Source of the DNA: Mycolicibacterium baixiangningiae
GTDB taxonomy: Bacteria > Actinomycetota > Actinomycetes > Mycobacteriales > Mycobacteriaceae
DNA: 64,000 bases
Direction: 5' to 3'
Assembly: GCF_016313185.1 (NCBI RefSeq)
Contig: NZ_CP066218.1
Coordinates: 2,294,001-2,358,000 of the forward strand
Shown in pieces: positions 13,639-46,526 of this stretch. The position numbers were made by a program, and so were the translations under genes. The notes below the pieces were generated by a model, which was not told the DNA's origin, did no database searches, and saw only the letters and a program-made list of their open reading frames with translations. The stretch's first letter is position 1, and each line of letters begins with the position of its first letter.

Positions 13639-13712
13639 GGGGCGGTAGCTCAGTCGGTTAGAGCCGTGGACTCATAATCCATTGGTCGCGGGTTCGAGCC
13701 CCGCCCGCCCCA
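13639..13712 (+). tRNA. tRNA-Met (anticodon CAT)
   Basis: 74-nt cloverleaf without encoded CCA. Acceptor GGGGCGG pairs with CCGCCCC; the D-stem is GCTC/GAGC; the anticodon stem GTGGA/TCCAT encloses loop CTCATAA (anticodon CAT); the T-arm is GCGGG-TTCGAGC-CCCGC. The CAT anticodon could also belong to an Ile2 tRNA. The 3' half serves as the integration site of the island that follows. Confidence 0.93.
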
Positions 13713-13713
13713 C
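13676..13713 (+). other. attachment site attL (3' end of tRNA-Met)
   Basis: 38 bases from the anticodon loop to one base past the tRNA end are repeated identically at 37159-37196. They recur with 31 of 38 matches at 46489-46526. This is the standard footprint of tyrosine-integrase islands that use the 3' half of a tRNA and restore the gene on integration. Confidence 0.85.
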
Positions 13714-13755
13714 GTCAGAGGGTGTTTTTCAAGATCGATTCTTGGAACTCATCGT

Positions 13756-14533
13756 TTATTCACCGTTTATGACGGTCTTCGCAGGTCGTACGGCCTGCCG
13801 CCATGCCTCGCGCACGGCGGCGAGCGCTTCGGCTGCCGTGACGGTGAGGCGGGTCTGTCCGGCCAGCTGGGCCTGCCACTCGGCATCCGTCGGAGCCCGG
13901 TCGAACATGCGCTGCGTCGGCACCTTGTTGGTCGGTCCGTATCGCCGAAACAGTGCGGCTGCGTCCGGGTCGATGGGCGCCGAGTCGGCTCAGCGCCCAC
14001 AGGTCCCAGAGGTCGCGGGCGGCGTGCCGGTCCGTCCACGTGGCCGTCTTCGACGCCGCGAATGCGGGGAGAATCGGTACAAGCAGTTCAGCAGCGGGTG
14101 CGTCCGCATAGCGCTGAAACAGGTCGCGCCGTTCCGTCGGCCAGACGACCCGGTCGCGCGCGGAGAGCAATTGGAGGCGAACCGGGCGTCCGTCCGACGG
14201 GCGCAACAGCACCGGCAGGGTGTCTGCAGTACCGCTGAGGGCGGGTTCGACGGTCAGCCAGCCGTGGGTGCGCGCGACAGCGCGGGGGAGGGTGGCGTCG
14301 AGCTCGGTGGCCACCTCTTTGCGGCTGCCGATGGCGATGAGGTCGATGTCTTCACTCAGCCGTCCGTCGGGGAGGTGGGTGCGGGCCAGGGCGGTGCCGC
14401 CGATGAAGTGGACGCGGTCACCGAACTCGCGGCTGAGGAACGCGAGGATGTGGGAGATGAGGTGGTCGCGCTCGACTTGTTCGGCGGACACGCTGAACTG
14501 CGTTGCGACCGAGTCGCGTTCGTCAGGATCCAT
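13756..14533 (-). pseudogene. abiEii: AbiEii-type nucleotidyltransferase toxin, copy 1, with one frameshift
   Basis: ATG 14533 (MDPDERDSVAT) overlaps the end of the antitoxin gene by 11 bases. The nucleotidyltransferase core is present: HFIGGTALARTHLPDG then RLSEDIDLIAIGSR. Near codon 185 (GGG at 13974-13976) the frame shifts; removing one G restores IDPDAAALFRRYGPT and the C-terminus ending VINGE with TAA at 13756-13758, about 258 residues. The second copy at 37.2 kb confirms the intended frame. AbiEii toxins add nucleotides to RNA substrates and arrest growth, for example during phage infection. If the shift is real, the toxin has an altered C-terminal third. Confidence 0.82.
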
Positions 14534-15176
14534 GATCGACCCCCGCCCAGTCTTCCGCCCGGCGCAGGGAGGCCAAGCGGCGTTGTTCGGTGGCGAGCTG
14601 GCGCAAACGGTCTGGATCCGCTCGTGCGTGGAGGGCTTTGACGGCGGCGGGGACGTCGGTTGCGCTGTCGCCGAGGGTGGGGCGGTGCGCGAGGTCGAGG
14701 ATGGTTTGTTCGGGTGTCGTCGCCAGTGTGGGGCCCAGGTCAGTGCGGACGCGTTCGGCGTCGAGTTCTGCGGTGTTGCGTTTGACGAACCGTACGACGG
14801 CCGGCCGGTCGGTGAGTGTGATGGGGCGGTGTTGGCGCGGTACCGCCACGATGGCGGTTGCCAGAGCGCGGGGGATTGCGCCGTGCAGGCGCGCGGCGCT
14901 GAGTCCCATGACGACGATGTCGTCATGGCCGAAGATCGTGGTGGCGATTCCGGCGGCGGCGGCTTCCAGATCGGGAATCCATCTGCGGCCCAGCATTTCT
15001 TGTGGGATGACGACGTAGTAACCGTGGGCGAGGCGATGGAGCAGGCCGTGTTCGTAGAGCCGTGCGATTTCGGGGCCCGGGTACGCGTAGGTGGCATCGG
15101 CCTGCCCGGTGCGAAAGGTGCGCAGTGGGCGCGCGGCGAGGCCGGCGGGGACCGCCGTGCTGTGTTGCCTTGCCAT
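14523..15176 (-). CDS. abiEi: AbiEi-type antitoxin / autoregulator, copy 1
   Basis: 217-residue protein, intact. The N-terminal winged-helix region (ATYAYPGPEIARLYEHGLLH, then YYVVIPQEMLGRRW) is followed by the AbiEi core VVMGLSAARLHGAIPRALA and TDRPAVVRFVKRNT. It should neutralise AbiEii and repress its own promoter through inverted repeats. The ATG at 15176 follows GGAGGGTGGATT. It is closely related to the copy at 37893-38546. Confidence 0.87.
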   Translation of the reverse strand: MARQHSTAVPAGLAARPLRTFRTGQADATYAYPGPEIARLYEHGLLHRLAHGYYVVIPQEMLGRRWIPDLEAAAAGIATTIFGHDDIVVMGLSAARLHGAIPRALATAIVAVPRQHRPITLTDRPAVVRFVKRNTAELDAERVRTDLGPTLATTPEQTILDLAHRPTLGDSATDVPAAVKALHARADPDRLRQLATEQRRLASLRRAEDWAGVDHGS

Positions 15177-15188
15177 AATCCACCCTCC

Positions 15189-15229
15189 AGTATGCGAATC
15201 ATAGGCTATTGACCTACAAAATGCATACT
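15189..15229. promoter_or_regulatory. candidate AbiEi operator upstream of copy 1
   Basis: AGTATGC (15189-15195) and GCATACT (15223-15229) form an inverted repeat just upstream of abiEi. The right arm sits in AAATGCATACTCA, which recurs exactly at 38589-38601 before the second abiEi. Known AbiEi proteins bind paired inverted repeats in their own promoter. Confidence 0.55.
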
Positions 15230-15275
15230 CATAAGTTTCATTGACCGTCGGGCTCTTTAACCGCGCGTGTGGCTT

Positions 15276-15341
15276 CTCAAAATTAATGTCCGTTTCTCAA
15301 ACTGAATGTCCACACGATGTCCAATTGGACATCAAAGTGAG
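15276..15341. repeat. cluster of CTCA-N5/6-ATGTCC repeats (left group)
   Basis: CTCAAAATTAATGTCC (15276-15291), CTCAAACTGAATGTCC (15296-15311) and, on the other strand, CTCACTTTGATGTCC (15327-15341) occur together around the palindrome TGTCCAATTGGACA (15318-15331). Similar units recur at 22344-22853. Multiple short terminal repeats of this kind are typical of IS21-type element ends, but no istAB genes are present. The rest of 15230-15540 holds no gene I can support. Confidence 0.55.
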
Positions 15342-15540
15342 AATCCGCAGCCCGGCGAGACGTTCCGGAGGGTGCAGCTGGCTTGAGAAACTGGTTGATG
15401 CCGCGGTGAGTGCGCGCGGATGCTGTGGTGGTGGGGGATCGTCGAGCAGTGGCCGTCGCTGCGTGATCAGGTGGTCCTGGCGGAGCCGGTTGTTTGGCCC
15501 GTCTGGGCGGCGCAAGGTCGGCGAATGGGTCGCCGCACAG

Positions 15541-16361
15541 GATGGTTTCGTGGGAGACGGCGACTTCGCCAGGACATTCTCCGATCACGTTCACCTGCCC
15601 GGTATCGCGTCCTTGGACTACGCGCACCGACATATCCGTACGCCGCGCGGCGACCTGCTGGGTGGGATCAGGTTCTACTCGCGAAACGTCGCTCGCCCGT
15701 TCGTCGACGTCTTGGCCCATAGCTTCGACGACTCGACTCCCTAGCCGCGTGCGTACTGGCTGAATGGTCGCCGTTCAACGTGCGCTACTTGCGTGTGCAG
15801 ACCCGGCCCCACCGGCTGGCCGATTGGACCGACGCTCTGCTCGACAAGAGCACTCACGCCGCCAGATGCCGCGACATGGCGCCCTGCGATGGCCGCGTCA
15901 CTCTACAACGGCTCGATACCCCCGAAGTCGCCCTCGGCGTGGTCGCCGAACGCTATGCCCAGCTCGCCGCGACAGACCCCGCACTGTCGAACAACATGTC
16001 CCTGGCCGCACCCGACGATCTGCGGTACTGGCATGCGCACCAACAACTGTGGGCCATCACCCGGGGCGCAGACACCATCGGTGCCTTTGCAGTGGTGCCC
16101 GGAGCGCTCGGCTGGATCACCGGCCAAGAGATCAACGAGCAGGCTCGCCGTCAAGCCGGGCCAGGACTGGTCATCAGCGCGCCCCACACGGGACAGCGTT
16201 ACGCCACCTCGACGCAGTGCGCGTGGGCGCACCGGTGGGCTGCTGACACCACCGACCTGCTCATCGGAACCATCGACCGCCACAACTACGCCTCACGCGC
16301 TACCGCGCTGCGCGCCGGGCGACCCCGCGTACTCGACAACGTCTTCATCAGCCTCGACTGA
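15541..16361 (+). pseudogene. GNAT-like acetyltransferase, frameshifted and probably 5'-truncated
   Basis: From about 15541 one frame encodes FARTFSDHVHLPGIASLDYAH (part) and GDLLGGIRFYSRNVARPFVD, then stops at about 15742. The next frame continues at once with LAACVLAEWSPFNVRYLRV and runs to TAG-free end at 16361. The C-terminus TIDRHNYASRATALRAGRP resembles the last helix and strand of GNAT N-acetyltransferases. A one-base loss near 15735 would explain the break. No convincing start is visible upstream, where the repeat cluster lies. It is convergent with the symporter gene. The substrate is unknown. Confidence 0.55.
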
Positions 16362-16468
16362 CAAGCCCATGGCATCGTGATCTGGTCGCCGGCTGACACT
16401 CCGAACCGGCCGTCCTGGCTCAGACCTAGAGAATGTGAACGGCTCAGTCCTTTACCAGCGCAGAGTCG

Positions 16469-17884
16469 CTATGTCCGTTCCAGCGCAACAGATCGTGGCA
16501 GGGGTGAAGGTTGTGGCGTCGGGAGCATTTCCTGGGTGATGGCATCTCGCACGGTTGCGGGGTTGTCGAGGGCTCGCTGGAAGGCGTCGTCGTCACGTTC
16601 CCCTGCGAGCTTGGCGATGATCATGGTTCCGGCGGCGACGCCGACAACGCTGGTGAGTGCTTTGCCTTCGCTCATGACGCGGTCGATGCCGATGACAAGG
16701 GCGATTCCGACAGCGAGAGTGGACGGCGGGAAGAATTCGGTTCCGAATGCTTGCAGCGTTGCGGCGAGTGTCACGACGCTCGCGCCACTGACTCCTGCCG
16801 CGCCTTTACTGGTGATCAGCATCAGGCCGAGTAGGGCCAACTGCGCACCTAGCGAAAGGTCGGTTCCGCCTGCCTGCGCGATGAACAGGGCAGCCATGGC
16901 CATGTAGATGGCTGTTCCGTCGAGATTGAACGAGTATCCAGTAGGGACGGTCAACGACACCACGCGGCGTGAGGCTCCGGCTGCCTCGAGTTTGGCAAGG
17001 AAGCGGGGTAGTACGGTTTCCGAGGAGGAGGTGCCGAGGACGATCAGCAACTCGTCTTTGATCATGCGCACGAACTTGAAGATGTTGAACCCGCTCCAAG
17101 CTGCGATCGCGCCGAGGATGACAAACACGAACATGATGCATGTCAGCCAGAACGCCAGCATCAAGAGACCTAGAGAGCCCAGGCTCTGACTTCCGAATTG
17201 TCCTGTGGTGTAAGCGATGCCACCGAACGCGCCCAGTGGCGCGGTGAACATGACGATGCGGATGATACCGAAGACGACCTTGTTGACTGTCTCGAATGTG
17301 CGGACGACGCTCTCGCGCAGAGTGGGCGTAAGCACCGAGACCGCGCAGGCGACGACGATGGCCAGCACCACCACTTGGAGTATCGCGTTCTCGACGAAGG
17401 GTTGTACGAAGCTGCTGGGCAGGATGTCGTGTCGAATGAAGCCGACGATCCCCTCGCTGTCGCTAGCTTGAGCGAGGTCTTCTTGTGCTTTTTCGAGTGC
17501 AGTGGCCCCAGGGTCGCCTTCGAAGCCGGCTCCGGGTTTGACGAGGTTGGCGACCACCATTCCCAGTGCCAGGCACAGTGTGGTCATCGCGAAGAAGTAG
17601 CCCAACGCGATGCTGCCGAGCTTGCCCACTTTGCGCAGATCGCCGAGAGAGGCGATACCGACGACGATGGAACAGAAGATAATCGGTGGTGCGACCACGC
17701 GTATCAACTGAATGAAGGTGTCGGCCAGCCATTTCATCTGAACTGCCACAGTGGGCGCAGTCAGGCCGAGAACGATACCTGCGGCGATCGCAACGATGAT
17801 CCAGAACCACAACTTGGTGATGATTCTCCATCGGCCGGCCGGCTGAGGCCGCGTCGATGCGGCGGTTGATCCATCGATGACCAT
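16469..17884 (-). CDS. dicarboxylate/amino acid:cation symporter (DAACS, DctA/GltP-like)
   Basis: 471-residue membrane transporter. Hallmarks are the serine-rich re-entrant loop VLGTSSSETVLPRFL, the NMDGT-like motif as GYSFNLDGTAIYMAMA, and a second hairpin ending SKGAAGVSGASVVTLAATL. It imports aspartate, glutamate or C4-dicarboxylates with H+ or Na+. The ATG at 17884 has a strong AAGGAG site 6 bases upstream. Neighbouring HAD, DSD1-like and RidA genes suggest it feeds a D-amino or hydroxy amino acid pathway. It lies within island A, absent from the core synteny. Confidence 0.88.
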   Translation of the reverse strand: MVIDGSTAASTRPQPAGRWRIITKLWFWIIVAIAAGIVLGLTAPTVAVQMKWLADTFIQLIRVVAPPIIFCSIVVGIASLGDLRKVGKLGSIALGYFFAMTTLCLALGMVVANLVKPGAGFEGDPGATALEKAQEDLAQASDSEGIVGFIRHDILPSSFVQPFVENAILQVVVLAIVVACAVSVLTPTLRESVVRTFETVNKVVFGIIRIVMFTAPLGAFGGIAYTTGQFGSQSLGSLGLLMLAFWLTCIMFVFVILGAIAAWSGFNIFKFVRMIKDELLIVLGTSSSETVLPRFLAKLEAAGASRRVVSLTVPTGYSFNLDGTAIYMAMAALFIAQAGGTDLSLGAQLALLGLMLITSKGAAGVSGASVVTLAATLQAFGTEFFPPSTLAVGIALVIGIDRVMSEGKALTSVVGVAAGTMIIAKLAGERDDDAFQRALDNPATVRDAITQEMLPTPQPSPLPRSVALERT

Positions 17885-17894
17885 GTTGCGCTCC

Positions 17895-17950
17895 TTGTTC
17901 TTTGGGTGACCACGGCGTCGAGTTGTTCTTTGGGTGACCACGGCGTCGAG
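17895..17950. repeat. perfect 28-bp tandem duplication before the symporter gene
   Basis: The unit beginning TTGTTCTTTGGGTGACCACG is present at 17895-17922 and again at 17923-17950 without mismatch. It lies in the leader of the symporter gene, next to its ribosome binding site, so copy number could alter expression. Confidence 0.85.
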
Positions 17951-18350
17951 CTAGTTGGGCCGGGGTCAGGTCTCCCCGCGACTGCGGGCGGTGACGGGGG
18001 GATGGGATGGAGGTAGTCGACCGGACTGGCTTCTCAGCTCGGTACGACATCGTCCGGTACGTCCTCAGCCTGTCCACGCGGCGAGCACGCCGGCAGACTG
18101 GCCCGGTGATCCGCCAGGGACGGTTCCGGTGATCAGGTGCATCACGGCAGGGCATCGAATCGGGTCATTGCCCGGCGGGGGCTCGGGAATGTACTTGATG
18201 CCTGAATTGCGGTTACGACAGAGGCAGATTGACAACTTGTCGCTGCGAGTTAGGAGGGGCTCTGGGTTTCCGCATGAGCGAGCCTCGCTACGGCTGTCCT
18301 GTTTGTCGACGGAGTACCGCCGGGATCAGCGCTCCGACCCGGTACTTGAC

Positions 18351-19025
18351 CTACGGACCGCACGAGATTGGCCCGACTGTGTCGCGGAGGAGCGGCGCCA
18401 GGCTGTCGTGTTCGGCGAGCGGAGCTGGAAGGTCGCCCCGGTCCATGTTGATGCGGTTGTGCCACCACACGGGCATTCCGAGGCCGCCGGCGCCGGGTAT
18501 GTCGTAGCGAGATCCCGCAACGAAAAGGATTCGATCCGCGGGAAGCGCGAGTCGCTCGATGGCAAGGGCGTACGGTTCCGGTCGCGGCTTGTATGCACCT
18601 GCGACCTCGGCGGTGACCATCACGTCCAGGGGAACACGCAGTTGATCCGCGGCAATTTTACCGAGTTTTTCGGAGCAGTTGGTGACGACACCTATCTTGA
18701 GTCCGTTCGATGAGAGTTCACGCAACACGCCCGGTGCTTCGTCCCAGGGTTGGATCGTGTTCCACCGGGCTGACAGGCGATCGGCATAGGAGCGGTCCAG
18801 TCCCTGGGCCTCAGCTGCTTCTGCTACGAGGGTTTCGTAAGGGCGGTACGCGCCTTCGCCATAGGTAATCTTCAAGTACTCATCGCGCCAGCGTCGGCCG
18901 ACGGCAGGATCGCCCGCAACGTCGGCCCACACTGTCCACGAGTCCAGAAGTGCTGTGAGCAGGTCGAATAGAACGGCGTCATACTGTCGGGCCGATGCTT
19001 CGCAAGGGGGGGTATCCATGTGCAT
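18351..19025 (-). CDS. HAD-family 2-haloacid dehalogenase-like hydrolase
   Basis: 224 residues, the size of type II haloacid dehalogenases. Motif I is LFDLLTALLDSW (nucleophile Asp21), motif II VVTNCSE (Thr115), motif III AGAYKPRPEPYAL (Lys146), motif IV FVAGSRYDIPGAG. The second Asp of phosphatase-type motif I is absent (DLLT), favouring a dehalogenase or related C-X hydrolase over a phosphatase. It lies between the symporter and the DSD1-like gene on the same strand. A start at the ATG at 19019 is also possible. The true substrate is not known. Confidence 0.8.
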   Translation of the reverse strand: MHMDTPPCEASARQYDAVLFDLLTALLDSWTVWADVAGDPAVGRRWRDEYLKITYGEGAYRPYETLVAEAAEAQGLDRSYADRLSARWNTIQPWDEAPGVLRELSSNGLKIGVVTNCSEKLGKIAADQLRVPLDVMVTAEVAGAYKPRPEPYALAIERLALPADRILFVAGSRYDIPGAGGLGMPVWWHNRINMDRGDLPAPLAEHDSLAPLLRDTVGPISCGP

Positions 19026-19159
19026 TCTCTTTCGTTCGTGGTGGCGGTGTTAACAGTTCTGTCGTGTGTTCCGGTGTGGGTGTGTGGGTAGACAAGCTGG
19101 GCGTCGACGTGGGTTCTCGTCTGCGTACGGTCGACCGGTGGGGTGCTGCAAAGCCGGGT

Positions 19160-20314
19160 TTACCAGCCCTGCGCCCGCTCCCAAGTATTGACAATGACGG
19201 GTGACGAGCCCTGCACGACGGAATACTTCGAATGTTGGATTCCCATGGCGCACGCATGGTTAGGCAAAATCCGCAATCTGGTTCCGATGGGGAGTGCCGG
19301 CAGTTCTGCGCCGCTGCCGGGCCGCACAGACAAGACGCCGTGCTCTTGGCTCGCGCCGCTCATCAGCACGTCGGGGAGTAGTTCGCCGTAAATGTCAGCG
19401 ACCAGTCCGTACCCTTGGTCGACGGCTTGGACTGCGGTTCCTCGATCACGTGAGGTTGCTGTCCACCCGCCGTCAGTCAGAATCCAACCCCTGTCGGGTC
19501 GGTGTCCGATGACACTGACCACGGCTGAGAGGGCGAGATCGTCGAGCGCGCAGACGCCAATGCCCGCCATGACCAAGTCGAAGAAGACGAAGTTCCCAGC
19601 TCGTACCTCGGTGACACCGGTCAGGTCGCGGACGGCGTGCGCGGTAGGAGTGGACCCGACGCTGACGATGGGCGCGGGGTGGCCCGCCGCGCGCAAGGTT
19701 TCGGCAACAGCAACGGCTGTTCTTCGTTCGGTTTCTGCGGCGGCGGCGCGCTCGTGTGGTGAGTAACTGAAGTAGGACTCGCCGGCGTGCGTCAACACTC
19801 CCCTCAACTCTGCACCGCCGACATTCAGAATCTCCGCGATCGTGATCGCTGCGGGATCCCCGGGGAGTACGCCTCCGCGGTGACCGTCGCAGTCGACTTC
19901 GAGGAGAGCTGGTATAGGTACACCGTAGGTCGACGACGCGTCCGCGACGGCTTGCGCTTGTTCGATGCTGTCGAGAAGCACGGTGAGGTCGACGCCCGCA
20001 CGTCGCAGGTCCACTACGCGCTGCAGCTTGTCTGGCGCAATCCCCACCGCATACAGGATGTCGGTGAAACCATCCGCGGCGAAGACTTCACCTTCGGCCA
20101 AGGTGGACACCGTGATCGGACCAGTTCGTCCGGCCCATATCTTTCGCGTGATAACCGTCGACTTCGATGTTTTCACATGGGGCCTGAGAGGGACATCGAA
20201 GCGTTCGAGGTGTGCCTGCAACCGGTCTATATTGCGGTCAATCTTCGTCTCGTCCGCCAGCAGGAACGGGGTCTGAGGGTCGAGCAAGGTCGTACGGTTC
20301 GGAGGTGTCGTCAC
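19160..20314 (-). CDS. DSD1-like PLP enzyme (D-threonine/3-hydroxy-D-aspartate aldolase type)
   Basis: 384 residues of the fold-III, alanine-racemase-like DSD1 family. The PLP lysine is in RPHVKTSK (Lys48). The barrel includes LEVDCDGHRGGV and VSVGSTPTAHAV. The C-terminal metal site is PNHACAM (His and Cys). Members cleave D-3-hydroxy amino acids (D-threonine, D-3-hydroxyaspartate to glycine plus aldehyde) or deaminate D-serine. Divergent from the DauR-like regulator, and in the same direction as HAD and the symporter, so it is probably the first gene of that transcript. Confidence 0.85.
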   Translation of the reverse strand: MTTPPNRTTLLDPQTPFLLADETKIDRNIDRLQAHLERFDVPLRPHVKTSKSTVITRKIWAGRTGPITVSTLAEGEVFAADGFTDILYAVGIAPDKLQRVVDLRRAGVDLTVLLDSIEQAQAVADASSTYGVPIPALLEVDCDGHRGGVLPGDPAAITIAEILNVGGAELRGVLTHAGESYFSYSPHERAAAAETERRTAVAVAETLRAAGHPAPIVSVGSTPTAHAVRDLTGVTEVRAGNFVFFDLVMAGIGVCALDDLALSAVVSVIGHRPDRGWILTDGGWTATSRDRGTAVQAVDQGYGLVADIYGELLPDVLMSGASQEHGVLSVRPGSGAELPALPIGTRLRILPNHACAMGIQHSKYSVVQGSSPVIVNTWERAQGW

Positions 20315-20374
20315 TACGAGGCTCTCTCTATCGAGTGGTATCGGGATCCTGTCGTGGGAATGCGACCTGCGTTA

Positions 20375-20442
20375 CATTCTGTCTAACCGACAACTGTTTG
20401 TAAAGAGCAGTGTGGACTTTGAGTAAAATCTTCGACAGAATG
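20375..20442. promoter_or_regulatory. inverted CATTCTGTC / GACAGAATG pair in the divergent promoter
   Basis: CATTCTGTC (20375-20383) and GACAGAATG (20434-20442) are perfect inverted copies 50 bases apart, lying between the DSD1-like gene (start 20314) and the regulator (start 20552). They are plausible half-sites for the DauR-like regulator controlling both directions. Confidence 0.45.
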
Positions 20443-20551
20443 AAAGGTGCCGCCCCCGGGCGCAGCCTGCCGGACCCGTCGGGGGCCGATCCAGGCCCGG
20501 ACGGGCCAGTAACGGCCCGGCGGTGCACCACACCACCGAGCTGGAGAATGA

Positions 20552-21208
20552 ATGACACCGTCGGAAACCGAGCACCTCCTGTCTGAACTCGACAAGATCG
20601 CCACCGCTGTCGGACGAACATTTCCCGGCCTGTGTGAGGTCGTCCTCCATGACTTGAGAGACTCCCTGCACACGATTCGCACCATCGAAAACAACATGTC
20701 GGGGCGCCAGCCAGGAGACTCGGCAACAGAACTCGGACTCGCCCGCATCCAGGACCCGAGCTTCCCTGCCGTGCTTCAGAACTACGCGAACAACTTCCCC
20801 GACGGCCGGGCATCGAAAAGCACCTCGATCGGCATCAAGGACAGCGACGGCAACTACATCGCCGCGCTGTGCTTGAACGTGGACGTGTCATTGCTCAGTA
20901 CTCTCAACCACCAGCTCGCTGCCCTGACCCGCATCGACGAACAGGGCACGCGAGTTCAGGAAAGCCTGCGGCCGAAGAGCCTCCAGGAGATACGCGACTT
21001 CATTGCCCGATACGCAGCCGAGCGAGGTCAGACCCCCCAGGCCTTGGATGCCGGAGCAACTCGGGCGCTCACACGCCAACTACGTGATGAGGGATACATG
21101 GACATCAAGAAGTCCGTCCCGACAGTCAGCGAGGCCATCGGCGTCTCTCGGGCGACCGTCTACAACTACCTCAAAGAGTCCACGCCCAACGAAAGCGCTA
21201 CGACATGA
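20552..21208 (+). CDS. DauR-like transcriptional regulator (YheO-type PAS plus HTH)
   Basis: 218 residues. The N-terminal YheO-type PAS-like domain (LCEVVLHDLRDSLHTIRTIE, then TSIGIKDSDGNYIAALCLNVD) senses a small molecule. The C-terminal HTH_22-type helix-turn-helix is VPTVSEAIGVSRATVYNYLK. The family includes DauR, the repressor of D-arginine catabolism, so a D-amino-acid-type inducer is plausible. Its end overlaps the start of ridA by ATGA. Divergent from the DSD1-like enzyme gene. Confidence 0.85.
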   Translation: MTPSETEHLLSELDKIATAVGRTFPGLCEVVLHDLRDSLHTIRTIENNMSGRQPGDSATELGLARIQDPSFPAVLQNYANNFPDGRASKSTSIGIKDSDGNYIAALCLNVDVSLLSTLNHQLAALTRIDEQGTRVQESLRPKSLQEIRDFIARYAAERGQTPQALDAGATRALTRQLRDEGYMDIKKSVPTVSEAIGVSRATVYNYLKESTPNESATT

Positions 21209-21579
21209 AGCAGATCAACGCTGCCGGTCTCGTCCCCCCACTGGGCAGATACAGCCACGTCACGATTGTCGGCGGAATCGCCTACATCTCCGGCCAGCTA
21301 CCCATCGACACTCACGGCGAGCCGCTCACCACCAGATCCTTCAGCGGACAGGTGAAACAAGTCCTTGCCAACGTCGATGCCTGCCTGGCCTCTGCAGGCC
21401 TGACCCGCGAAGATCTCGTGCAGGTCCGCGTGTATGTCACGAACATCGCTGACTGGGCAACCTTCGATGGCATCTACGGCGAATGGATCGGAAGCCATCG
21501 CCCCGCCCGAGCCGTTGCCGGCGTCAAAGAACTGCACTACGGGTCAGCAGTCGAAGTAGAAGCGGTCGCCCGGGCGTAA
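21205..21579 (+). CDS. RidA-family enamine/imine deaminase
   Basis: 124 residues, standard RidA length. Family features: AYISGQLPIDTHGE, the conserved Asn in VLANVDACLASAGL, VQVRVYVTNIADWATFD, and the final AVEVEAVA. The substrate-binding Arg is in HRPARAVAGV. RidA hydrolyses reactive enamines/imines made by PLP enzymes, fitting the neighbouring DSD1-like gene. The ATG overlaps the regulator's TGA, so the two are translationally coupled. Confidence 0.88.
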   Translation: MKQINAAGLVPPLGRYSHVTIVGGIAYISGQLPIDTHGEPLTTRSFSGQVKQVLANVDACLASAGLTREDLVQVRVYVTNIADWATFDGIYGEWIGSHRPARAVAGVKELHYGSAVEVEAVARA

Positions 21580-37196: not shown

Positions 37197-37237
37197 TTCA
37201 GTGGCATTTTTCAAGATCGAGATTATGAACTCAACGG

Positions 37238-38546: not shown

Positions 38547-38557
38547 TTTCACTCCTT

Positions 38558-38600: not shown

Positions 38601-38651
38601 AACAGCGCAACCTTCATTCCGAGCGCGGCTCGTCGCGCTCGCTGACGGCGC

Positions 38652-38790: not shown

Positions 38791-38947
38791 TCGGTGGTTC
38801 GGCCGCTGGGCTGGGTCGTCGACGTGCGGTCAAGCGCAACCGTGCCCAGGACACAATATGGAGCTGTAAGGGGGCTATTGAAATTAGGGTCGCTTCAGCA
38901 TCTTTCGCACCGTCATTGACGTCATGACACCGTCGACGGTCTCCACG

Positions 38948-40540
38948 TCACCTCGTGTCCACCGTGGCGTCGCGGCGGTCCGATGCACCGTTCGACTCCA
39001 GGTCAGCCGAGTCGGGATGTGCTGGCAGGTAGATCAGCGTGAGGACGGCCGCGACCGCGGTCACCACGGCTGCCACGACGCAACCGGTGGTGAACCCGTC
39101 GACGAAACTGGTGCGGGCGAGATCCGTTAGTTGAGCGGCGGCGCGGGCGCCGGCGTCACCGAGGGACGCCGCGGCGTGTTGCGAGGCAGCGAGCGCAGCA
39201 CCGACGGAGTCACGCGCGGGGTCCATCAATTGCTCGGGCAACGGTGCACCGTGAAGGCCGTCCCGATAGACCGACAGTGCGACCGACCCTATGACCGCGA
39301 CGCCGAGGGTTCCGCCGATTTCTCGGGTCGCATCGTTGACGGCAGATCCCATGCCTGCCTTCTCCGGCGAGACGACCCCCATGATCGCCTCAGTCGCAGG
39401 GGTGTTCGTAAGACCGAGGCCCGCACCCAGGAACAGCATCTGGCCGACGATCTCGGGGTAGCTCGTGCCGACGTCCACGGTCGAGGCCCAGCCGAAGGCG
39501 ACGCTCAGCGACACCAGCCCGAATGCGACTACGAGCTTCGAACCGATCACCACGGCGAGGCGAGTCCCGATCAGGGACGCGACAGCGATCGAACCCGCGA
39601 CGGGAAGCATGCGTATGCCCGTCTCGAATGCGCCGTATCCGCGAACGGATTGGAAATACTGTGTGACGAGGAAGATGAAGCCGAACAGTGCGAAGAATGC
39701 GCTCGTCACAGCTCCGCTTGCGGCCGTGAAACGCAGGTTGGTGAACAGCCGGACGTCGAGCATCGGGTGCGCGACGCGTGCCTCCTGCACCACGAAGACG
39801 CCAAGAATCACTGCTGCTGAGACGAATCCGAGGATCGTCGGCTTGGATGACCACCCTCGATCGGGTGCCTCGATGATCGTGTATACCAAAGCGCCGAGAG
39901 CGAGGGTGGATAGAGCGAGACCGACGAAGTCCAGAGGAGGTGTGGCCGGGTCCTTGGAGTTCGGGACGAAGCGCAGTGTGAGAACCACTGTGAGTGCGGC
40001 TGCGGCACCGTTGAACACCAGGATTGAACCCCACCAGAAGGATTCGACGAGTGCTCCGCCGACGACCGGGCCTACAGCGACCGATATGCCGGTGGCCGCG
40101 CCCCAAATGCTGATCGCCTTGACCCGTTCGGACCGCTCAGTGAAGACGTTGGTCAGGATCGACAACGTCACCGGATACACCACCGCCGCCGCGGCGCCGG
40201 CCACTGCGCGCCAAGCGATCAGGACGCCGGAGCTCTGACTCCAGGCGCCGGCGAGTGAGGCGATCAGGAACACGACCAGGCCCAGCACAAGAAAGGGCTT
40301 GCGACCGAATCTGTCGCTGAGCGAACCGCCCGCCAAGACCAGAGCGGCGAATGCGAGGTTGAAGGCGTCGACGATCCACAACAGGTGGCGCGTAGTGGCC
40401 CCCAGTTCTCCGACAAGTGTTGGCAGGGCGATGTTCACGATCGTTGTCGAGACGTTCACCACGAACACCGCGAAGCACAGGGCCACCAGCGTGGCACCCT
40501 TATTCGGGCGGTCCCCACGCAGCCTTTTTCTCAGTGGCAC
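38948..40540 (-). CDS. MFS drug efflux transporter, DHA2 (14-helix) family
   Basis: 530 residues, typical DHA2 length with about 14 membrane segments. Motif A appears as GGSLSDRFGRKPFLVLG, motif B region around AWRAVAGAAAAVVYPV, and motif C-like GPVVGGALVESFWWGSIL. The N-terminus (FVVNVSTTIVNIALPTL) is characteristic of EmrB/QacA-type pumps. Proton-driven export of drugs or lipophilic compounds is expected. The downstream position relative to the DUF4188 gene and a divergent TetR suggests inducible efflux. Confidence 0.9.
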   Translation of the reverse strand: MPLRKRLRGDRPNKGATLVALCFAVFVVNVSTTIVNIALPTLVGELGATTRHLLWIVDAFNLAFAALVLAGGSLSDRFGRKPFLVLGLVVFLIASLAGAWSQSSGVLIAWRAVAGAAAAVVYPVTLSILTNVFTERSERVKAISIWGAATGISVAVGPVVGGALVESFWWGSILVFNGAAAALTVVLTLRFVPNSKDPATPPLDFVGLALSTLALGALVYTIIEAPDRGWSSKPTILGFVSAAVILGVFVVQEARVAHPMLDVRLFTNLRFTAASGAVTSAFFALFGFIFLVTQYFQSVRGYGAFETGIRMLPVAGSIAVASLIGTRLAVVIGSKLVVAFGLVSLSVAFGWASTVDVGTSYPEIVGQMLFLGAGLGLTNTPATEAIMGVVSPEKAGMGSAVNDATREIGGTLGVAVIGSVALSVYRDGLHGAPLPEQLMDPARDSVGAALAASQHAAASLGDAGARAAAQLTDLARTSFVDGFTTGCVVAAVVTAVAAVLTLIYLPAHPDSADLESNGASDRRDATVDTR

Positions 40541-40666
40541 AACGAGTCCGCTCCCGCTGCCGTCGGGGCCGTCTCGAGGGCTCCGCTCAGCTGCAGGCCG
40601 GCGAAGGGCGCGGGGGCGCGCATCGAGCGCGGGTTGACCGGACAGACCGTCGACGGTGGCAGCGAG

Positions 40667-41155
40667 TCAGTGAGCATCGGTGTCGCCGAGTCGGTCGCGC
40701 ATCGTGGACGTGCTCCGCAAGGTGCGGTACTGGCCTGCCGCGGCCAAGCCCATCCGCGGCATGTTGGCGTAGATCGCCTCGAACTGGCCGGCCTGGACGC
40801 GGAAGGTCTCGTGCCAGACCCCCACGTGGCCGTTGTAGGCGGTTCGGCGGAAGAATTCCCGTTGAGCCGGGCGATGTCTGCGGTCCTCGTTATTGGCCCA
40901 AGTCTCGAGTTCCTCCATCGAGCGCCAGTACTGGATGAACATCGGTACCCGCCAGTCGGTGACCGTCAGCATCGTCCGCGATTCCAGCAGCGGCGAATCG
41001 GGGAGCTCTTTGAGCTCTCTGGTCATGGCGAACGCCGCGCGCATCACGGGCACCCATTCGTTCACCCGCCGAAGGTGATTGACGCGCATTCCGATGAAGA
41101 AGACGACGAAGTCGTCCGGGAAGTTGGCGGTGTATCGGCCCGCTTCGACATCCAT
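40667..41155 (-). CDS. DUF4188 (ABM-fold monooxygenase-like) protein
   Basis: 162 residues from ATG 41155 (MDVEAGRYTANF), preceded by GGGAG. Family features: VVFFIGMRVNHLRRVNEW, QYWRSMEELETWANNEDRRHRPA and the end GMRLG-like NMPRMGLAAAG. The fold is a dimeric alpha/beta barrel seen in small monooxygenases. It is divergent from the TetR gene and upstream of the MFS gene on the same strand, so modification plus export of a toxic compound is a reasonable reading. Confidence 0.8.
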   Translation of the reverse strand: MDVEAGRYTANFPDDFVVFFIGMRVNHLRRVNEWVPVMRAAFAMTRELKELPDSPLLESRTMLTVTDWRVPMFIQYWRSMEELETWANNEDRRHRPAQREFFRRTAYNGHVGVWHETFRVQAGQFEAIYANMPRMGLAAAGQYRTLRSTSTMRDRLGDTDAH

Positions 41156-41273
41156 TGATCTCCCCGCTTTATGGGTGGAGCGGCGGAAGCCGCCGCCCGC
41201 ACAGCGTAAGACGGACACTGTGTACTTACAAGTTGTCTGTGACTATTCTTGGCGTGGCGCTAAGGTGGCGCGC

Positions 41274-41915
41274 GTGTCGGTCCTGGACAAGCGCAGTCGA
41301 GACGACCCGCGCCGCCAAGCCACGGAGCAGGCGTTCCTCGACGCGACGAAGTCGCTCCTCGACGACGGGGCGCCGTTCGCCGACCTCAATGTCAGTCGCA
41401 TCGCCGAGCGCGCCGGCCGGACGCGCACCGCGTTCTATACGCACTTCTCGGATCGACGCGAGTTGCTTTTGGCACTTCTGCGCGACGCCGGTGGAGACGC
41501 AATTGCGGCACTCGGACCGTTCCTGGCTGGTGAAGGTCAGATCGCCCATAGCGAGATCACGACGGCGACCCGGGCGCTGCTCGAGAACTTCCATAAGCAC
41601 GCGACGCTCGTGCGAGCGGTCATCGAAGCGGCAAGCTACGACGAGCAGATCGGTACCCAGTGGTCGACGATCGTGAGACGCATCATCGACGATGCCGGTC
41701 TCCGATTGCAGACCGCTGGACTGAGCAGAGACGCAGCCGCCCCCATCGCTACCGCGTTGGTCTGGATGACCGAGCGCACCTGCTACCAGCAAGCGGTCCG
41801 CAACGACACCGACCTCGATGACGAGCAGATGATCCTGGGCATCAGCAATGTCTGGTGGAACACGATTCGTGGCGCCGCTGAGTCCGGTCGGCCCAGTGCC
41901 GGGGAACATCGCTGA
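41274..41915 (+). CDS. TetR-family regulator
   Basis: 213 residues. The N-terminal HTH is DLNVSRIAERAGRTRTAFYT then HFSDRRELLLALL. The ligand domain is helical (ATALVWMTERTCYQQAV, a TetR_C type). Starts at GTG 41274 or 41265 are both possible. It is divergent from the DUF4188-MFS genes (starts 118 bases apart) and probably represses them. Confidence 0.85.
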   Translation: MSVLDKRSRDDPRRQATEQAFLDATKSLLDDGAPFADLNVSRIAERAGRTRTAFYTHFSDRRELLLALLRDAGGDAIAALGPFLAGEGQIAHSEITTATRALLENFHKHATLVRAVIEAASYDEQIGTQWSTIVRRIIDDAGLRLQTAGLSRDAAAPIATALVWMTERTCYQQAVRNDTDLDDEQMILGISNVWWNTIRGAAESGRPSAGEHR

Positions 41916-42221
41916 TTCGGAGTCTTCTCTCCTCAGCCCTCCGAGTGCGGACGCCGCACCGTCCGTGACTGACCGAGGTAACGGCGCGAGGTCGAGGTGT
42001 TCGAGATGGTTGCGCGACGGTCCAGCGGGAGGTCGTGGCACGGCTCACGACGGTACTTCCCGCAGTTCCGCAGATTCAGAGGAACACCATGAGTCGGAAG
42101 CGACCGGATCGGGTGCCGCTCGTCTGTATCGGTTGAGTGCTGGAAACTATTGTGTGCCAAGAGCATCGAGCGGAATGTGGCAGCCTCGAGATCGGCCCGT
42201 CTCAAATCCACTGGTCGCTGA
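41916..42221. other. gap with a short tRNA-like att match
   Basis: No gene supported. AATCCACTGGTCGC at 42205-42218 matches 13 of 14 bases at the start of the attachment site (AATCCATTGGTCGC), but the match ends there. Confidence 0.4.
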
Positions 42222-43343
42222 TCAGCACCGTGTCGAGTTGCGGACGGCAGCAGTGATGTAGCGCTGCGCGGCTTCGTCTATCGTGATGTTTTCTTCCTGG
42301 CTCAGGAGTCGAAGCTGGGCGAAGGCATCCTGAGCGCTGAGGCCGGCGTGCCTGCCGACACCAATGGCTCGATCGATGAGCGTCCGGCGATCTAGCAGCT
42401 CCTTTAGTTGTGCGGCTGCGCCTTTCGCCGGATGGCGCTCGCTGCAACTGCCTGACAGCTCGGTTGCCGCCCTGTCGGGTACGGGCTTCGCGGTCTGGGC
42501 GACGAAATCGCTGATGATGCCGGCGACTTCAGCCGGCGCCTCGATCTGGGGAAAATGCCCAACGGCGGGAAGAATCTCGAGCCGACTTCCTGACCTTGCT
42601 GCCTGCGCCGCGTACCCGTGCTCGACTGGAATGATTTTGTCTGCACCGCCCCAGATCAGCAGCGTGGGCGCGTCAGCGCGGATATGCAACCGGTTGAGCG
42701 CGCTCACCGTTTGGCCGCGGTAGTCGACCACCGAGCGCAGGGTGCGTAAGAACGCTTGTCGGGTAGGAGGCTCGGCGAACGAGGAGTAGGTCTTCCATAT
42801 TTCAGCGCCCAGCACCGAGTCCACTCCCATTGCTCCCAGCCACCTGCGCACCGTACGCCCGATGCCGAGCACGGGTCTCGGTGCAATGAAGGGAAGCACA
42901 AGCTCTGCGCCCGGCGCGGCCAGTAACCGCAAGATCAGGCCCACGTCTGGACCGAGGCCGCCGCTGCTGATCAAGATCAGCCGCTGGCAGTACTCGGGAT
43001 GCTGGTATATGAACTGCATCGCTACGCCGCCGCCGAGCGAATGACCGACAACGGTCACCTCGTCGATACCCAATTCGTCGAGCAAATCTCGCAACCCTGC
43101 TGCGAAGGCACCCAGCGAATAGTCGCTCCGTGGTTTGGCGGACAGTCCGTGACCCAGCAGGTCCGGTGCCACAACACGATAACTGTCCGCCAACAAGGAA
43201 AACACCGGACTCCATGATTCCGAAGTGCCCCCCATCCCGTGAAGCAGTAGCAACACCTCGCCGCTACCCGCCTGTCGATAAGCGATGCGATCTCCATGCA
43301 GGTCCACGTAGCGAACCTCGCTTTGATTTGCGTCGTTGCCCAT
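42222..43343 (-). CDS. alpha/beta-hydrolase fused to a C-terminal ANTAR domain
   Basis: 373 residues. ATG 43343 has AGGAG 5 bases upstream. Residues 1-280 are an alpha/beta-hydrolase: oxyanion region LLLLHGMGGTSESW, nucleophile elbow VVGHSLGGG (Ser102), acid after LLIWGGADKIIPVEHG, and catalytic His in LPAVGHFPQIE. The last about 60 residues (QLKELLDRRTLIDRAIGVG, LSAQDAFAQLRLLSQEENIT, DEAAQRYI) match the three-helix ANTAR domain, which binds paired RNA hairpins to prevent transcription termination. ANTAR is normally attached to sensor domains (GAF, PAS, receiver), so a hydrolase as the sensor part is unusual. Three GAF-ANTAR genes follow. Confidence 0.82.
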   Translation of the reverse strand: MGNDANQSEVRYVDLHGDRIAYRQAGSGEVLLLLHGMGGTSESWSPVFSLLADSYRVVAPDLLGHGLSAKPRSDYSLGAFAAGLRDLLDELGIDEVTVVGHSLGGGVAMQFIYQHPEYCQRLILISSGGLGPDVGLILRLLAAPGAELVLPFIAPRPVLGIGRTVRRWLGAMGVDSVLGAEIWKTYSSFAEPPTRQAFLRTLRSVVDYRGQTVSALNRLHIRADAPTLLIWGGADKIIPVEHGYAAQAARSGSRLEILPAVGHFPQIEAPAEVAGIISDFVAQTAKPVPDRAATELSGSCSERHPAKGAAAQLKELLDRRTLIDRAIGVGRHAGLSAQDAFAQLRLLSQEENITIDEAAQRYITAAVRNSTRC

Positions 43344-43966
43344 CGAACTCCTGTTTCCATTCACCGTGCTGTCGCCCCATCCATGCGTTCACCGGTATCT
43401 CCTGCGGGCCAATCGACTTCGCCGTCGGAGACATCGCAGGTGGCTATCGCGTCCGCTGTCTTAGCTGCGTTGGGGGTACGTCACCCGCGAACCCTGCCGC
43501 GATTCGTTTGTGTCTTCGGGGCCCTCGGGTGAGGATCGTGGTCTGGGGCCCTGCGTCGATCTATCGCGCTGCACGAGGTCGATGCGATGCGGCGTCGATT
43601 CCCTGCGGCTCAGGGACGACCGGCGACTGCTCCGAGATACCCGGCGCGGGGCCCTCCAAACGTCGGTCAGTCGTCGTGGGGGAGGCCCTATTCGTGCTTG
43701 GGCAACATCCGTTTGGGCCGTGTGACACCGGGTACGGGTCGCTGAGAGCACCAATGGAAGAGATCACCATGCGCGCAATGGATATCGGACACCCTATGAA
43801 CTGCGGGCCGACGAGATGGTCATGCCGTCCCTAGCACACCCTGACGCCATTCTTCGTGTGCAGGCGGCGGTCTGCGGACCGCACCAGCACCTCTACCACC
43901 GCAAGAGCGCGTCGCCTTCGTTGAAAGTCTTCCTTCGTTCGCGATCTCACAGTCTGGGTCTCGCGA
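43344..43966. other. 620-bp divergent intergenic region between ANTAR genes
   Basis: No supported gene. Several GC-rich potential stem-loops are present (for example GGGGCCCTCGGGTG and GGGGCCCTGCG about 43517-43556). The length is enough for leader RNAs in both directions, which matters because ANTAR proteins act on leader hairpins. Confidence 0.45.
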
Positions 43967-44677
43967 ATGCAGGATTTTGAACGTCGTCTGCTCGAGGCGG
44001 TCGGCGACGCCCGCGGTCTCAAGGCGGCCGACCGGTTGTGCGAGGCATGCGTCGGTTTACTCGACGTCGACGCGGCAGCGGTATCCATCGTGTTCGACGG
44101 CGCCAACATGGGCACCTACGGCGCCAGCGGTCCACAAGCCCGCAAGTACGACGAGCTGCAGTTCATTGTCGGTGAAGGGCCGTGCCTCGATTCCGTGGCC
44201 AACCGCGCACCGGTGATGGTTGCCGACCTGGCCGACCCTGAAGAAAATCGCTGGCCCGCCTACGGGCCCGTGATGATCGACTACCGGATCCGCGGTGTGT
44301 ACGCAATTCCCGTGGTAGTTGCCGGTGCCTACATGGGTGCCTTGGACTTCTTCCGCGCGATCCCAGACAGCCTGGCCACTGAGCAGATCGCGGGAATGGT
44401 GATCGCCGCTGAGCTGGCTCAACTGCCGCTGCTGGATCTGCTGAAGGGCGATTTGCAGACTGCGGTCGCCGATCCTGGCAGCGACGCCTGGGCAGAGCTG
44501 AACGAATTCTCGCGGACCGAAGTCAGTCAAGCCACCGGCATGCTGATGGCTCAGCTCAACATCGGCGCTGCCTCAGCCCTTGCGCGATTACGAGCCCGCG
44601 CCTACGCGAGTGGGCGCACCGCCAGCGCCGTTGCCCGCGACATCATCGACCGGCGACTCCAGATGGAGGCAGACTGA
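43967..44677 (+). CDS. GAF-ANTAR regulator
   Basis: 236 residues. GAF domain (about 20-160): LLDVDAAAVSIVFDGA, QFIVGEGPCLDSVANRAPVM (the EGPC block typical of this group), WPAYGPVMIDYRIRGVYAIP. ANTAR domain (about 175-230): VSQATGMLMAQLNIGAASAL then LRARAYASGRTASAVARDII. A ligand or redox signal sensed by GAF would switch RNA antitermination. It is the first of two tandem GAF-ANTAR genes. Confidence 0.87.
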   Translation: MQDFERRLLEAVGDARGLKAADRLCEACVGLLDVDAAAVSIVFDGANMGTYGASGPQARKYDELQFIVGEGPCLDSVANRAPVMVADLADPEENRWPAYGPVMIDYRIRGVYAIPVVVAGAYMGALDFFRAIPDSLATEQIAGMVIAAELAQLPLLDLLKGDLQTAVADPGSDAWAELNEFSRTEVSQATGMLMAQLNIGAASALARLRARAYASGRTASAVARDIIDRRLQMEAD

Positions 44678-44744
44678 TGTGTAGGACCTCATCTGTCCGG
44701 CTGCTAGGGAAGCCGTCTCCGGCGCCAAGCGGAAGTAGGCACTG

Positions 44745-45494
44745 ATGGATACATCGCGGGAATCGCGCGTTCTGGGCGCAGTCGTGACCTTGGTCGACAG
44801 CCTTCTGGATGACTTCGACGTGGTCGAGCTGCTCACCGATCTGACCGAGCAATGCGCCCAGCTTCTCGACGTCGGAGCTGCCGGGCTGTTGCTGGCGGGT
44901 CCCCGCCAGGGCCTTCATCTGATGGCTGCAACCTCACAAAAGTCGCATGAGCTCGAGGTATTCCAACTCCAGGCCGACGAGGGCCCCTGCCTGGACTGCT
45001 TCGCCACGGGCAAACCGGTCACGGCACCGGACCTCAGCACTCAGCACTCTCGTTGGCCTCGATTCGCTGCCGCTGCCGCCGATGCAGGGTATGTCTCTGT
45101 GCACGCGGTGCCCCTGCGCGCCGCTGGCACCGTATTAGGAGCGCTCGGGCTTTTCGGTGCGCGCGTAGGGGTGCTGAACGAAGCCGACCTTCTGGTGGCA
45201 CACACGTTGGCGCATGTGGCGAGCGTCGCACTCCTTCAAGAACATGCGCCGACATCCGACTCCATCGCAACGCCTCTTCGGGCGGCATTGACAGACCGTG
45301 TGGTCGTAGACCAGGCCACCGGGTTCGTCAGCCAACGCCTCGACGTCCCCATCGAGGACGCCTTCGATCTGCTGCGCCGTTACGCACGGACCCATGCTGA
45401 GCACTTGACCGACGCGGCACGGCTGCTGACAACCCCATCTGAGCAACGCCAGGGGATTCTTGAGGCGTTAACAGTCCTTGTGGTTCAGCCGTAG
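44745..45494 (+). CDS. GAF-ANTAR regulator
   Basis: 249 residues. GAF: LLDVGAAGLLLAGPRQGLHL, QADEGPCLDCFATGKPVTAP, VHAVPLRAAGTVLGALGLF. ANTAR: LTDRVVVDQATGFVSQRLD then PIEDAFDLLRRYARTH and LTDAARLL. It follows the previous gene by 67 bases on the same strand and probably shares its transcript. The pair differ enough not to be a recent duplication. Confidence 0.87.
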   Translation: MDTSRESRVLGAVVTLVDSLLDDFDVVELLTDLTEQCAQLLDVGAAGLLLAGPRQGLHLMAATSQKSHELEVFQLQADEGPCLDCFATGKPVTAPDLSTQHSRWPRFAAAAADAGYVSVHAVPLRAAGTVLGALGLFGARVGVLNEADLLVAHTLAHVASVALLQEHAPTSDSIATPLRAALTDRVVVDQATGFVSQRLDVPIEDAFDLLRRYARTHAEHLTDAARLLTTPSEQRQGILEALTVLVVQP

Positions 45495-45551
45495 GCACAG
45501 GGTTTGGTCGTGGGCGGTGTTCAGAACCCTCTATCGCACCCAGCGCTCCGC

Positions 45552-46250
45552 TCAGGCGCGGTTGAGTCTCGCGGCGTGTTGGTCGATCAACCAGCGGGCG
45601 AGCTCGACAAGCTTGATGTTCGATCGCTGCGACGTCTGCACCATCAGGGCGAATGCCTCTACATCTGTGAGGTTTTCGCGGTGCATCAGAAGGCCTTTGG
45701 CTTGGCCGATGGCATCTCTGCTGGACAGCGCATCGCGGAATTGAGACTCAGCGGCGGCGCCTATGAGTGCGACGGAAGCGTGCTGGGCGAGCAGTTCGCC
45801 CACGAAAAGCGACTCCTCATCAAAGACGCCGGGTTGGCTTCCGTACAGGTTGAGCGCCCCCAGATTCTCTGAGTGAACGAAGAGCTGAAACGAAAGGAGG
45901 CTTCCGATGCCGCGCGCTGCAGCGGTTTTGGAGAAGCGCGGCCAGCGAGACTCCAGCGCCATGTCTTCGATGTGGACCGTCCGGTGCTCGCGCAGGGCGC
46001 TCACGCACGGCCCCTCATCGAGCGACGATTGAAGCTCGTCGAGTTCGACGACCAGTGGATCGCTGGGCACACGGGCCTTCACCCGACGCCCCTCGATCAA
46101 AGAGATTCCTGCCCACTGTGCGCCGGGCACTATCGCGATCGCGCCGTCAACGATCGAATGCAACGTCGATTCGGCGTCAGTTTGGTCCTGCATCTCAACA
46201 GCGAGATCGCCCAAGACTTGCGCCAAATCAACCCGTGACAGCCCGGTCAT
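45552..46250 (-). CDS. GAF-ANTAR regulator
   Basis: 232 residues from ATG 46250 (MTGLSRVDLAQVLGD). GAF: PGAQWAGISLIEGRRVKARV, SLDEGPCVSALREHRTVHIE, FVHSENLGALNLYGSQPGVF. ANTAR: SSRDAIGQAKGLLMHRENLT, VEAFALMVQTSQRSNIKLVE, LARWLIDQH. The AKGLLM motif is textbook ANTAR. It is convergent with the preceding gene and is the last gene of island B. The frame is open upstream of 46250, but those codons look non-coding. Confidence 0.87.
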   Translation of the reverse strand: MTGLSRVDLAQVLGDLAVEMQDQTDAESTLHSIVDGAIAIVPGAQWAGISLIEGRRVKARVPSDPLVVELDELQSSLDEGPCVSALREHRTVHIEDMALESRWPRFSKTAAARGIGSLLSFQLFVHSENLGALNLYGSQPGVFDEESLFVGELLAQHASVALIGAAAESQFRDALSSRDAIGQAKGLLMHRENLTDVEAFALMVQTSQRSNIKLVELARWLIDQHAARLNRA

Positions 46251-46488
46251 GCCAAAGGGTATATCCGATTTTGACGTCGACGACACACGTCGACCGGCGC
46301 ACTGGTGGCCGGTCCTGCCTGCGGGCGCGCACCCAGCAACCCATTTGCTTGAGGCCACGGGAGCGGCGACGTAGGAGTTACGGGTGGAGTTGCGGATCAT
46401 GACCAGCGGAAACGCCAGTGGGATGGGGGTCAGCGTCGAACTCGTCGAAAGCGGTCGCCTTGTCGCTGTATGCGTCGAGCGAACCGGA

Positions 46489-46526
46489 AGTCCATTGCTC
46501 ACAGGTTCGAGCCTCTCCCGCCCCGC
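46489..46526 (+). other. degenerate third tRNA-Met 3'-end copy, right boundary of the island array
   Basis: 31 of 38 positions match the attL sequence, including TCCATTG, GGTTCGAGCC and CCCGCCCC. The tRNA 5' half is absent. It ends one base before the stop codon of the CDF exporter gene, where core sequence resumes. Confidence 0.75.

Follow-up and report, generated by a model that had tools for sequence, protein, structure and literature searches.

A 64,000-nucleotide stretch of Mycolicibacterium baixiangningiae, whose genome is one 6.18 Mb contig (NZ_CP066218.1, positions 2,294,001 to 2,358,000; hereafter the window, the numbering of which is used throughout), very probably has two site-specific integrative elements, both from a single mycobacterial family, arranged in tandem at the 3' end of a tRNA-Met gene, with a mobilizable element (element 1, 13714-37196) stacked on an older, decayed one (element 2, 37197-46526). 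The same-genus relatives used for comparison were mycobacteria. A preliminary description of this DNA had proposed two tandem islands, the outer one older. The tandem itself, defined by attachment site (att) repeats and headed twice by AbiE genes, held up, as did the more advanced decay of the outer element; the order of events is what we infer from them.

Attachment sites and element ends

ARAGORN placed the insertion target, tRNA-Met (CAT), at 13639-13713 (+ strand); its identity was taken from the CAT anticodon, which could also fit a tRNA-Ile2 type. The last 38 bases of the gene (att copy 1, 13676-13713) recurred on the same strand at 37159-37196 with 38/38 identity (copy 2) and at 46489-46526 with 31/38 (copy 3, the degenerate outer end of element 2), in agreement with the repeats given in the preliminary description. 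The next best match to the 38-mer within the window was 25/38, and 300 first-order Markov randomizations of 37197-64000, searched on both strands, gave 27/38 at best. When the inner 32 bases were sought in the whole genome with up to three mismatches, only copies 1 and 2 matched. The G+C content was 0.637 in element 1 and 0.642 in element 2, compared with 0.683 and 0.682 in the outer flanks. That copy 3 arose by chance and that the outer segment is ordinary chromosome is highly improbable; such an account could appeal to the identity of only 31/38 and to the weak right-arm similarity before this copy, but it has to accommodate the chance maximum of 27/38 and a segment whose other end is marked by a left arm, AbiE, and an integrase stub.

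The tRNA-Met gene was found downstream of tldD/pmbA in many relatives, with a CAT tRNA in 75 of 100 loci (L092-L191), from which 70 distinct tRNA-Met flanks remained once two with fewer than 90 bases of flank and three duplicates were set aside. A left-end arm (P'-like) follows the tRNA in element 1 (13714-13768, + strand), is common to AbiE-headed and integrase-headed islands elsewhere, and recurs at the left end of element 2 with 17 of 22 motif bases (37197-37251, + strand). At least 15 of these 22 bases were present in 11 of the 70 flanks, while 910 upstream control windows reached at most 14. The left arm follows the tRNA both where AbiE and where an integrase comes next, and because two unrelated genes thereby end on the same DNA we take it to be a site in its own right rather than conserved coding sequence alone.

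The right-end arm of element 1 (P-like; 36923-37158, + strand) also recurs before att copies in other genomes. It was found directly before att cores in relatives G002 (84% identity, 240 bases), G229 (85%, 183 bases), G019 (80%, 104 bases), and G128 (86%, 69 bases), and in weaker form in two islands headed by an integrase, those of G023 (17.3 kb; 74% over 77 bases) and G103 (14.7 kb; 18/19 bases). With both arms recurrent elsewhere, element 1 therefore has both ends of a recurring family, and its 38/38 copies provide the direct repeats at a specific site that characterize integrative and mobilizable elements (IMEs). At the ends of element 2, the left att copy is exact and accompanied by the arm, and the right copy (31/38) is preceded by a weak right-arm resemblance.

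Gene content and proposed order of integration

Each segment begins with an AbiE module (from 13760 and 37245 onward; Pfam) and carries an integrase or its remnant, as the preliminary description had it. In element 1, the AbiEii toxin gene (13760-14533, - strand; Pfam, PADLOC E 3e-90) shows a frame change near codon 186 relative to its relatives, and the AbiEi antitoxin gene (14523-15176, - strand; Pfam, PADLOC E 7e-97) is open and encodes 217 aa; the two are adjacent, the arrangement by which AbiE, a type IV toxin-antitoxin (TA) system, is recognized. In element 2, the toxin gene survives as remains (37245-37903, - strand; Pfam, frame comparison): about 110 bases close to its start are missing relative to copy 1, and the reading frame changes near codon 108. 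It adjoins a second open antitoxin gene of 217 aa (37893-38546, - strand; Pfam, PADLOC). The two AbiEi proteins share 74% identity. Intact AbiEii toxins do occur elsewhere, those of G027 and G229 aligning over 319 residues of frame at 85% identity. Frame length was tried as a measure of intactness and abandoned: 19 of 29 other AbiE loci had 244-260 codons, and the broken copy 1 (257 codons) passes as well, which makes the measure uninformative by itself. That both copies pair a damaged toxin gene with an open antitoxin gene is in keeping with selection having ceased to maintain the toxin. Neither AbiEi nor AbiEii matched the sequence of a solved structure at E 0.01. We take the AbiEii domain to be the same as DUF1814.

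The tyrosine integrase gene of element 1 (22910-24068, - strand) is frame-broken. Its residues 1-198 fall in one frame and residues 200-388 in another (24068-23481 and 23476-22910), the second piece matching PF00589 (E 2.4e-19). With its integrase in two frames, element 1 lacks a working integrase of its own; as assembled here, it could be no more than a degenerate IME. Next to the integrase gene lies an HTH_17 excisionase-like (Xis-like) gene (24142-24345, - strand; Pfam), a homolog of which adjoins an intact integrase at locus L128. The relaxase expected of an IME is provided by a TrwC/MobF relaxase-helicase (24670-27108, + strand; Pfam TrwC, E 2.5e-59) with 71% identity over 98% of its length to a mycobacterial plasmid MobF. 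Pfam scans of the selected open reading frames (ORFs) of element 1 detected no type IV secretion system or FtsK family that could stand for a conjugation pore. A phage or plasmid source for the integrase was sought and not established, the nearest matches being at 44% (Rhodococcus phage REQ3) and at 57% over two thirds of the length (a Mycobacterium ulcerans plasmid).

Further along element 1, an IS481-family transposase gene (29225-30196, - strand; Pfam) is followed by a Gabija-like pair (30297-33835, - strand; PADLOC), in which the frames of a GajB-like helicase (30297-31958, E 2.8e-40) and a GajA-like protein (31955-33835, E 1.1e-19) overlap by 4 bases; by sequence, this is the adjacent pair of OLD-like GajA and UvrD-like GajB helicase that is expected of Gabija. 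A Hypoth_Ymh-domain protein (35188-36321, - strand; Pfam) also gave a weaker PADLOC match to PD-Lambda-3_B.

Between AbiE and the integrase, element 1 carries cargo (15780-21579; Pfam) encoding a GNAT protein, an SDF symporter, a HAD hydrolase, an alanine-racemase-N/D-serine-dehydratase protein, a YheO-like regulator, and a RidA-type protein, a set that suggests a role in D-amino-acid metabolism. This cargo is flanked by a 31-base repeat, with one copy on the AbiE side (15317-15347, + strand) and the other, at 87% identity, just before the integrase (22803-22833, + strand). The repeat looks to us like a candidate insertion-sequence end. A perfect 28-base tandem duplication (17895-17950) was also observed where the SDF symporter gene begins.

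Element 2 retains about 45 C-terminal residues of an integrase directly after AbiE (38638-38774, - strand), with up to 96% identity over 23 residues to the open integrase of another genome. Its cargo (38948-46250; Pfam) encodes an MFS transporter, a Monooxy_af470-like protein, a TetR regulator, an abhydrolase-ANTAR protein, and three GAF-ANTAR proteins. Relatives of a GAF-ANTAR gene occurred in 213 of 297 genus genomes, the best outside this genome at 66% identity, so the gene marks no origin. No relaxase was found in Pfam scans of the selected ORFs of element 2 and, with only an integrase stub, it has lost its integration and transfer genes in the manner of cis-mobilizable elements (CIMEs).

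We propose that a tyrosine integrase of this family would recombine the 3' end of the tRNA with the end of an element, the latter consisting of core, left arm, and right arm, presumably by binding the arms; in AbiE-headed members, AbiE separates the left arm from the integrase. Element 2, the outer one (37197-46526), would have arrived first and decayed, leaving an integrase stub and a broken toxin, after which the relaxase-bearing element 1 would have entered the restored tRNA end and displaced element 2 outward. The cargo of D-amino-acid type would then have entered between AbiE and the integrase of element 1, perhaps via insertion sequences, with breakage of the integrase and toxin of element 1 thereafter. 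Neither element would now be expected to move unaided.

Two other histories were weighed. It is unlikely that AbiE with its cargo (13714 to ~22.87 kb) and the integrase element (~22.87 kb to 37196) are separate insertions, making three in all, with an att copy lost between them. In its favor, the integrase ends ~9.2 kb from the tRNA here, compared with 25-84 bases in integrase-headed islands, and no att remnant was found between the two parts, a hidden copy beside the integrase (21-24 kb) having been sought with a best match of 19/38. However, AbiE is directly followed by an integrase or its remnant in G008, G229, L141, and element 2, so that entry of cargo suffices, and the 31-base repeat is present on both sides of that cargo. 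A single entry into the tRNA of one composite island, stacked beforehand elsewhere, also appears improbable to us. The relatedness of the two AbiE heads (AbiEi 74%) would be in keeping with it, as would the conjugative transfer of such tandems reported in the available part of PMC5704250; the unlike decay of the two elements, with att identities of 38/38 against 31/38 and a near-complete integrase against a stub, is suggestive of separate arrivals and not decisive.

Several points count against two successive integrations at this site. A composite that moved in one step would look much alike, and the frame breaks rest on one assembly and could be its errors. The left arm was missing from 59 of the 70 tRNA-Met flanks, and the outer att copy is degenerate; in 13 of 500 shuffles, the resemblance to the right arm seen in the 98 bases before that copy was equaled or exceeded. 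No base-precise empty site was found among relatives, the tRNA being followed by 0.7 kb of other DNA in G042 (Mycobacterium sp. PS03-16 by identical sequence) and by ~20 kb in G002. The counts of tRNA association given below for the integrase and AbiEi stand without a random-gene control.

Related loci in other mycobacteria and the outer flank

Relatives of the integrase gave 55 matches in 50 of 297 genus genomes. Among the best 30 of these matches, taken one per genome with the query's own species included, 27 lay beside a tRNA 3' end (12 Met, 7 Arg-TCT, 6 Arg-CCT, and 2 Lys), one lay behind AbiE, and two had neither. AbiEi of this type gave 43 matches in 42 of the 297 genomes; at 30 of these loci, one per genome and the window included, AbiEi followed a same-strand tRNA located in the 1.5 kb flank in 21 (18 tRNA-Met and 3 tRNA-Ala), and five of the nine loci without a tRNA had an att core. 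AbiE followed by an integrase or its remnant was also found in G008, G229, L141, G190, and G006.

In five genomes (G190, G019, G128, G034, and G100), the regions compared contained AbiE between two att cores 1.6-2.1 kb apart. In G229, a unit of ~2.3 kb with an integrase fragment has both arms; its left core is beyond the contig end. Stacks were found in L141/G100 and in G019, where a second unit (4.0 and 12.8 kb, respectively) lies between the tRNA and the AbiE unit. We consider it probable, though far from assured, that the short units are only deletion scars without mobility of their own, kept because loss of AbiE is harmful. Consistent with scars, an integrase fragment runs straight into the att copy in G190 and G100, and no right arm was found in three of the five (G034, G190, and G100). 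In contrast, the right arm is kept in G019 and G128, and the latter unit (1.69 kb), alone of the five, clearly has both arms with AbiE by itself; G229, with both arms and an integrase fragment, is likewise at odds with mere scars. A more doubtful idea is that AbiE is a fixed end-piece of the island family and that the two-arm units of 1.7-2.3 kb (G128 and G229) are nonautonomous TA cassettes that full islands mobilize in trans and that stack at tRNA-Met.

A larger integrase-headed island in Mycobacterium numidiamassiliense (G104, L206-L208) spans the 45.9 kb between tRNA-Met and an att core and carries a full-length TrwC (58% identity); it is possibly a self-transmissible relative. Remains of a related element in G002 (C1:999288-1017955; L192, L093), with TrwC in three pieces, a right arm, and an att core, lie 1.5 Mb from the tRNA-Met site of that genome in opposite orientation, as if split by an inversion. 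A different feature of this tRNA was an array of TCGG(N)TGATG repeats, two to four copies ~22-24 bases apart, starting 14-42 bases after tRNA-Met. At least two repeats were present in 24 of the 70 distinct tRNA-Met loci, compared with 0 of 1,400 control windows; examples are L164 (15560-15660), where an IS481-type transposase follows, L170, and L120. In L170 and L177, the array appears again behind the second att copy, as if a transposon targeted this tRNA end and was pushed outward. No inverted partner was recognized at these arrays.

The position of copy 3 relative to the next gene was correctly described beforehand, its end (46526) lying one base from the end of the reading frame (46527) of a CDF cation efflux gene; the accompanying view of this gene as the core flank was not upheld. 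The CDF gene and an ArsR regulator (46527-47923, - strand) are accessory at this place; the name KmtR, given earlier, is presumptive. Had the CDF gene been the original flank, relatives with an empty site should carry it beside tRNA-Met, yet in seven of seven relatives its ortholog (68-87% identity) and the tRNA-Met site were separated by 355 kb to 1.5 Mb. These seven (G002, G004, G009, G029, G031, G050, and G054) belong to the same genus, consist of one to three contigs, and have both features; the comparison was drawn without G045 and G046, which had only CDF paralogs of 40-42%, drafts with CDF and tRNA on different contigs, and G076, a member of another genus in which a three-mismatch pattern match 89 kb from a 60% CDF was not confirmed as this tRNA. 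At 29 of 29 relatives' loci, two of them shortened by contig ends, the sequence flanking CDF (up to 1.5 kb per side) contained no tRNA. In G002, 26 kb separate CDF from a lone att core not at a tRNA. In five relatives read over 20 kb, the CDF/ArsR pair had none of its window neighbors, and their flanks shared little with one another (blocks of 1.4 and 0.4 kb in one pair, 0.3 kb in another).

The window resumes in G002 at 48099, ~20 kb after the tRNA (first common stretch 48099-48667, + strand), and in G042 at 56199, 0.7 kb after it (56199-58589, + strand; presumably Tex). Since the two closest relatives rejoin only at these points, the accessory DNA extends past 46526, and 46527-48098 is also accessory at this place, with no att found on its outer side within the window. 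The earlier attribution of ~33 kb of accessory DNA to two integrations thus stood as to the two tandem elements and fell short as to extent.

Neighboring genes were considered as markers of the old core without success. The gene at 48138-49451 occurs in only 7 of 198 genus genomes, this one included, and none of the six others had ArsR or CDF within 1.5 kb of its homolog; we infer that it predates the split of G000 and G002, because a shortened copy persists in G002, where it adjoins the same right flank. A TMEM164 gene upstream of the tRNA occurs in 24 of 100 genomes, including this one. The stretch 48668-53439 holds polyol-type genes (inositol monophosphatase family, mannitol dehydrogenase, and HAD); in G002, the pieces flanking it are joined and the stretch itself is missing.

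Relation to known elements and significance

Element 1 resembles IMEs with a tyrosine integrase at tRNA 3' ends in its att repeats, integrase, Xis-like HTH protein, and relaxase, as well as in having no conjugation pore gene among the ORFs scanned. Unlike those, its integrase is frame-broken and AbiE lies between the att end and the integrase. Island stacking itself is already known in other bacteria. The accretion scheme for IMEs and CIMEs set out in the available part of PMC5704250, in which a decayed element keeps its att ends and a new element enters at the shared att site, parallels the decayed element with att ends and the later entry proposed here. The present case differs in that a mycobacterial family at tRNA-Met is concerned, AbiE heads both elements, and the outer att is degenerate. 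No description of this island family was found in searches of open-licence papers, including the accessible portions of PMC10654092 and PMC6456199.

TA systems on integrative and conjugative elements (ICEs) offer a second comparison. ICESsuHN105 of Streptococcus suis is stabilized by two of them, AbiE and SezAT, either antitoxin sufficing (PMC11062541, as far as its text is available), and MosT of the SXT pair MosAT has domain DUF1814 (PMC2654960, likewise in part). The elements described here share with ICESsuHN105 and SXT an AbiE-type system on an integrated element and differ in that both toxins are broken and both antitoxins open. By analogy, AbiE may have helped the islands persist.

Actinomycete ICEs (AICEs) have an autonomous Rep and, according to the available part of PMC7478629, a TraB/FtsK-type translocase. 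Their closely related integrases use different tRNAs, such as tRNA-Lys, or tRNA-Met for Faln5456 (PMC3218068 and PMC7478629, available parts). The actinobacterial host and the tRNA sites are alike; in contrast, a TrwC relaxase is present here, and Pfam scans of the selected window ORFs revealed no TraB/FtsK-type translocase.

These results account for ~33 kb of accessory DNA, the Gabija-like defense pair included, and caution against assuming that a gene adjoining the outermost att is the original flank. The two arms and the core provide recognizable ends for finding related islands at tRNA-Met, and the integrase family is also at home at tRNA-Arg and tRNA-Lys genes across Mycobacterium. Full islands, islands with an integrase stub, and AbiE alone form a natural series in which to ask whether TA pairs outlast the islands that carried them.

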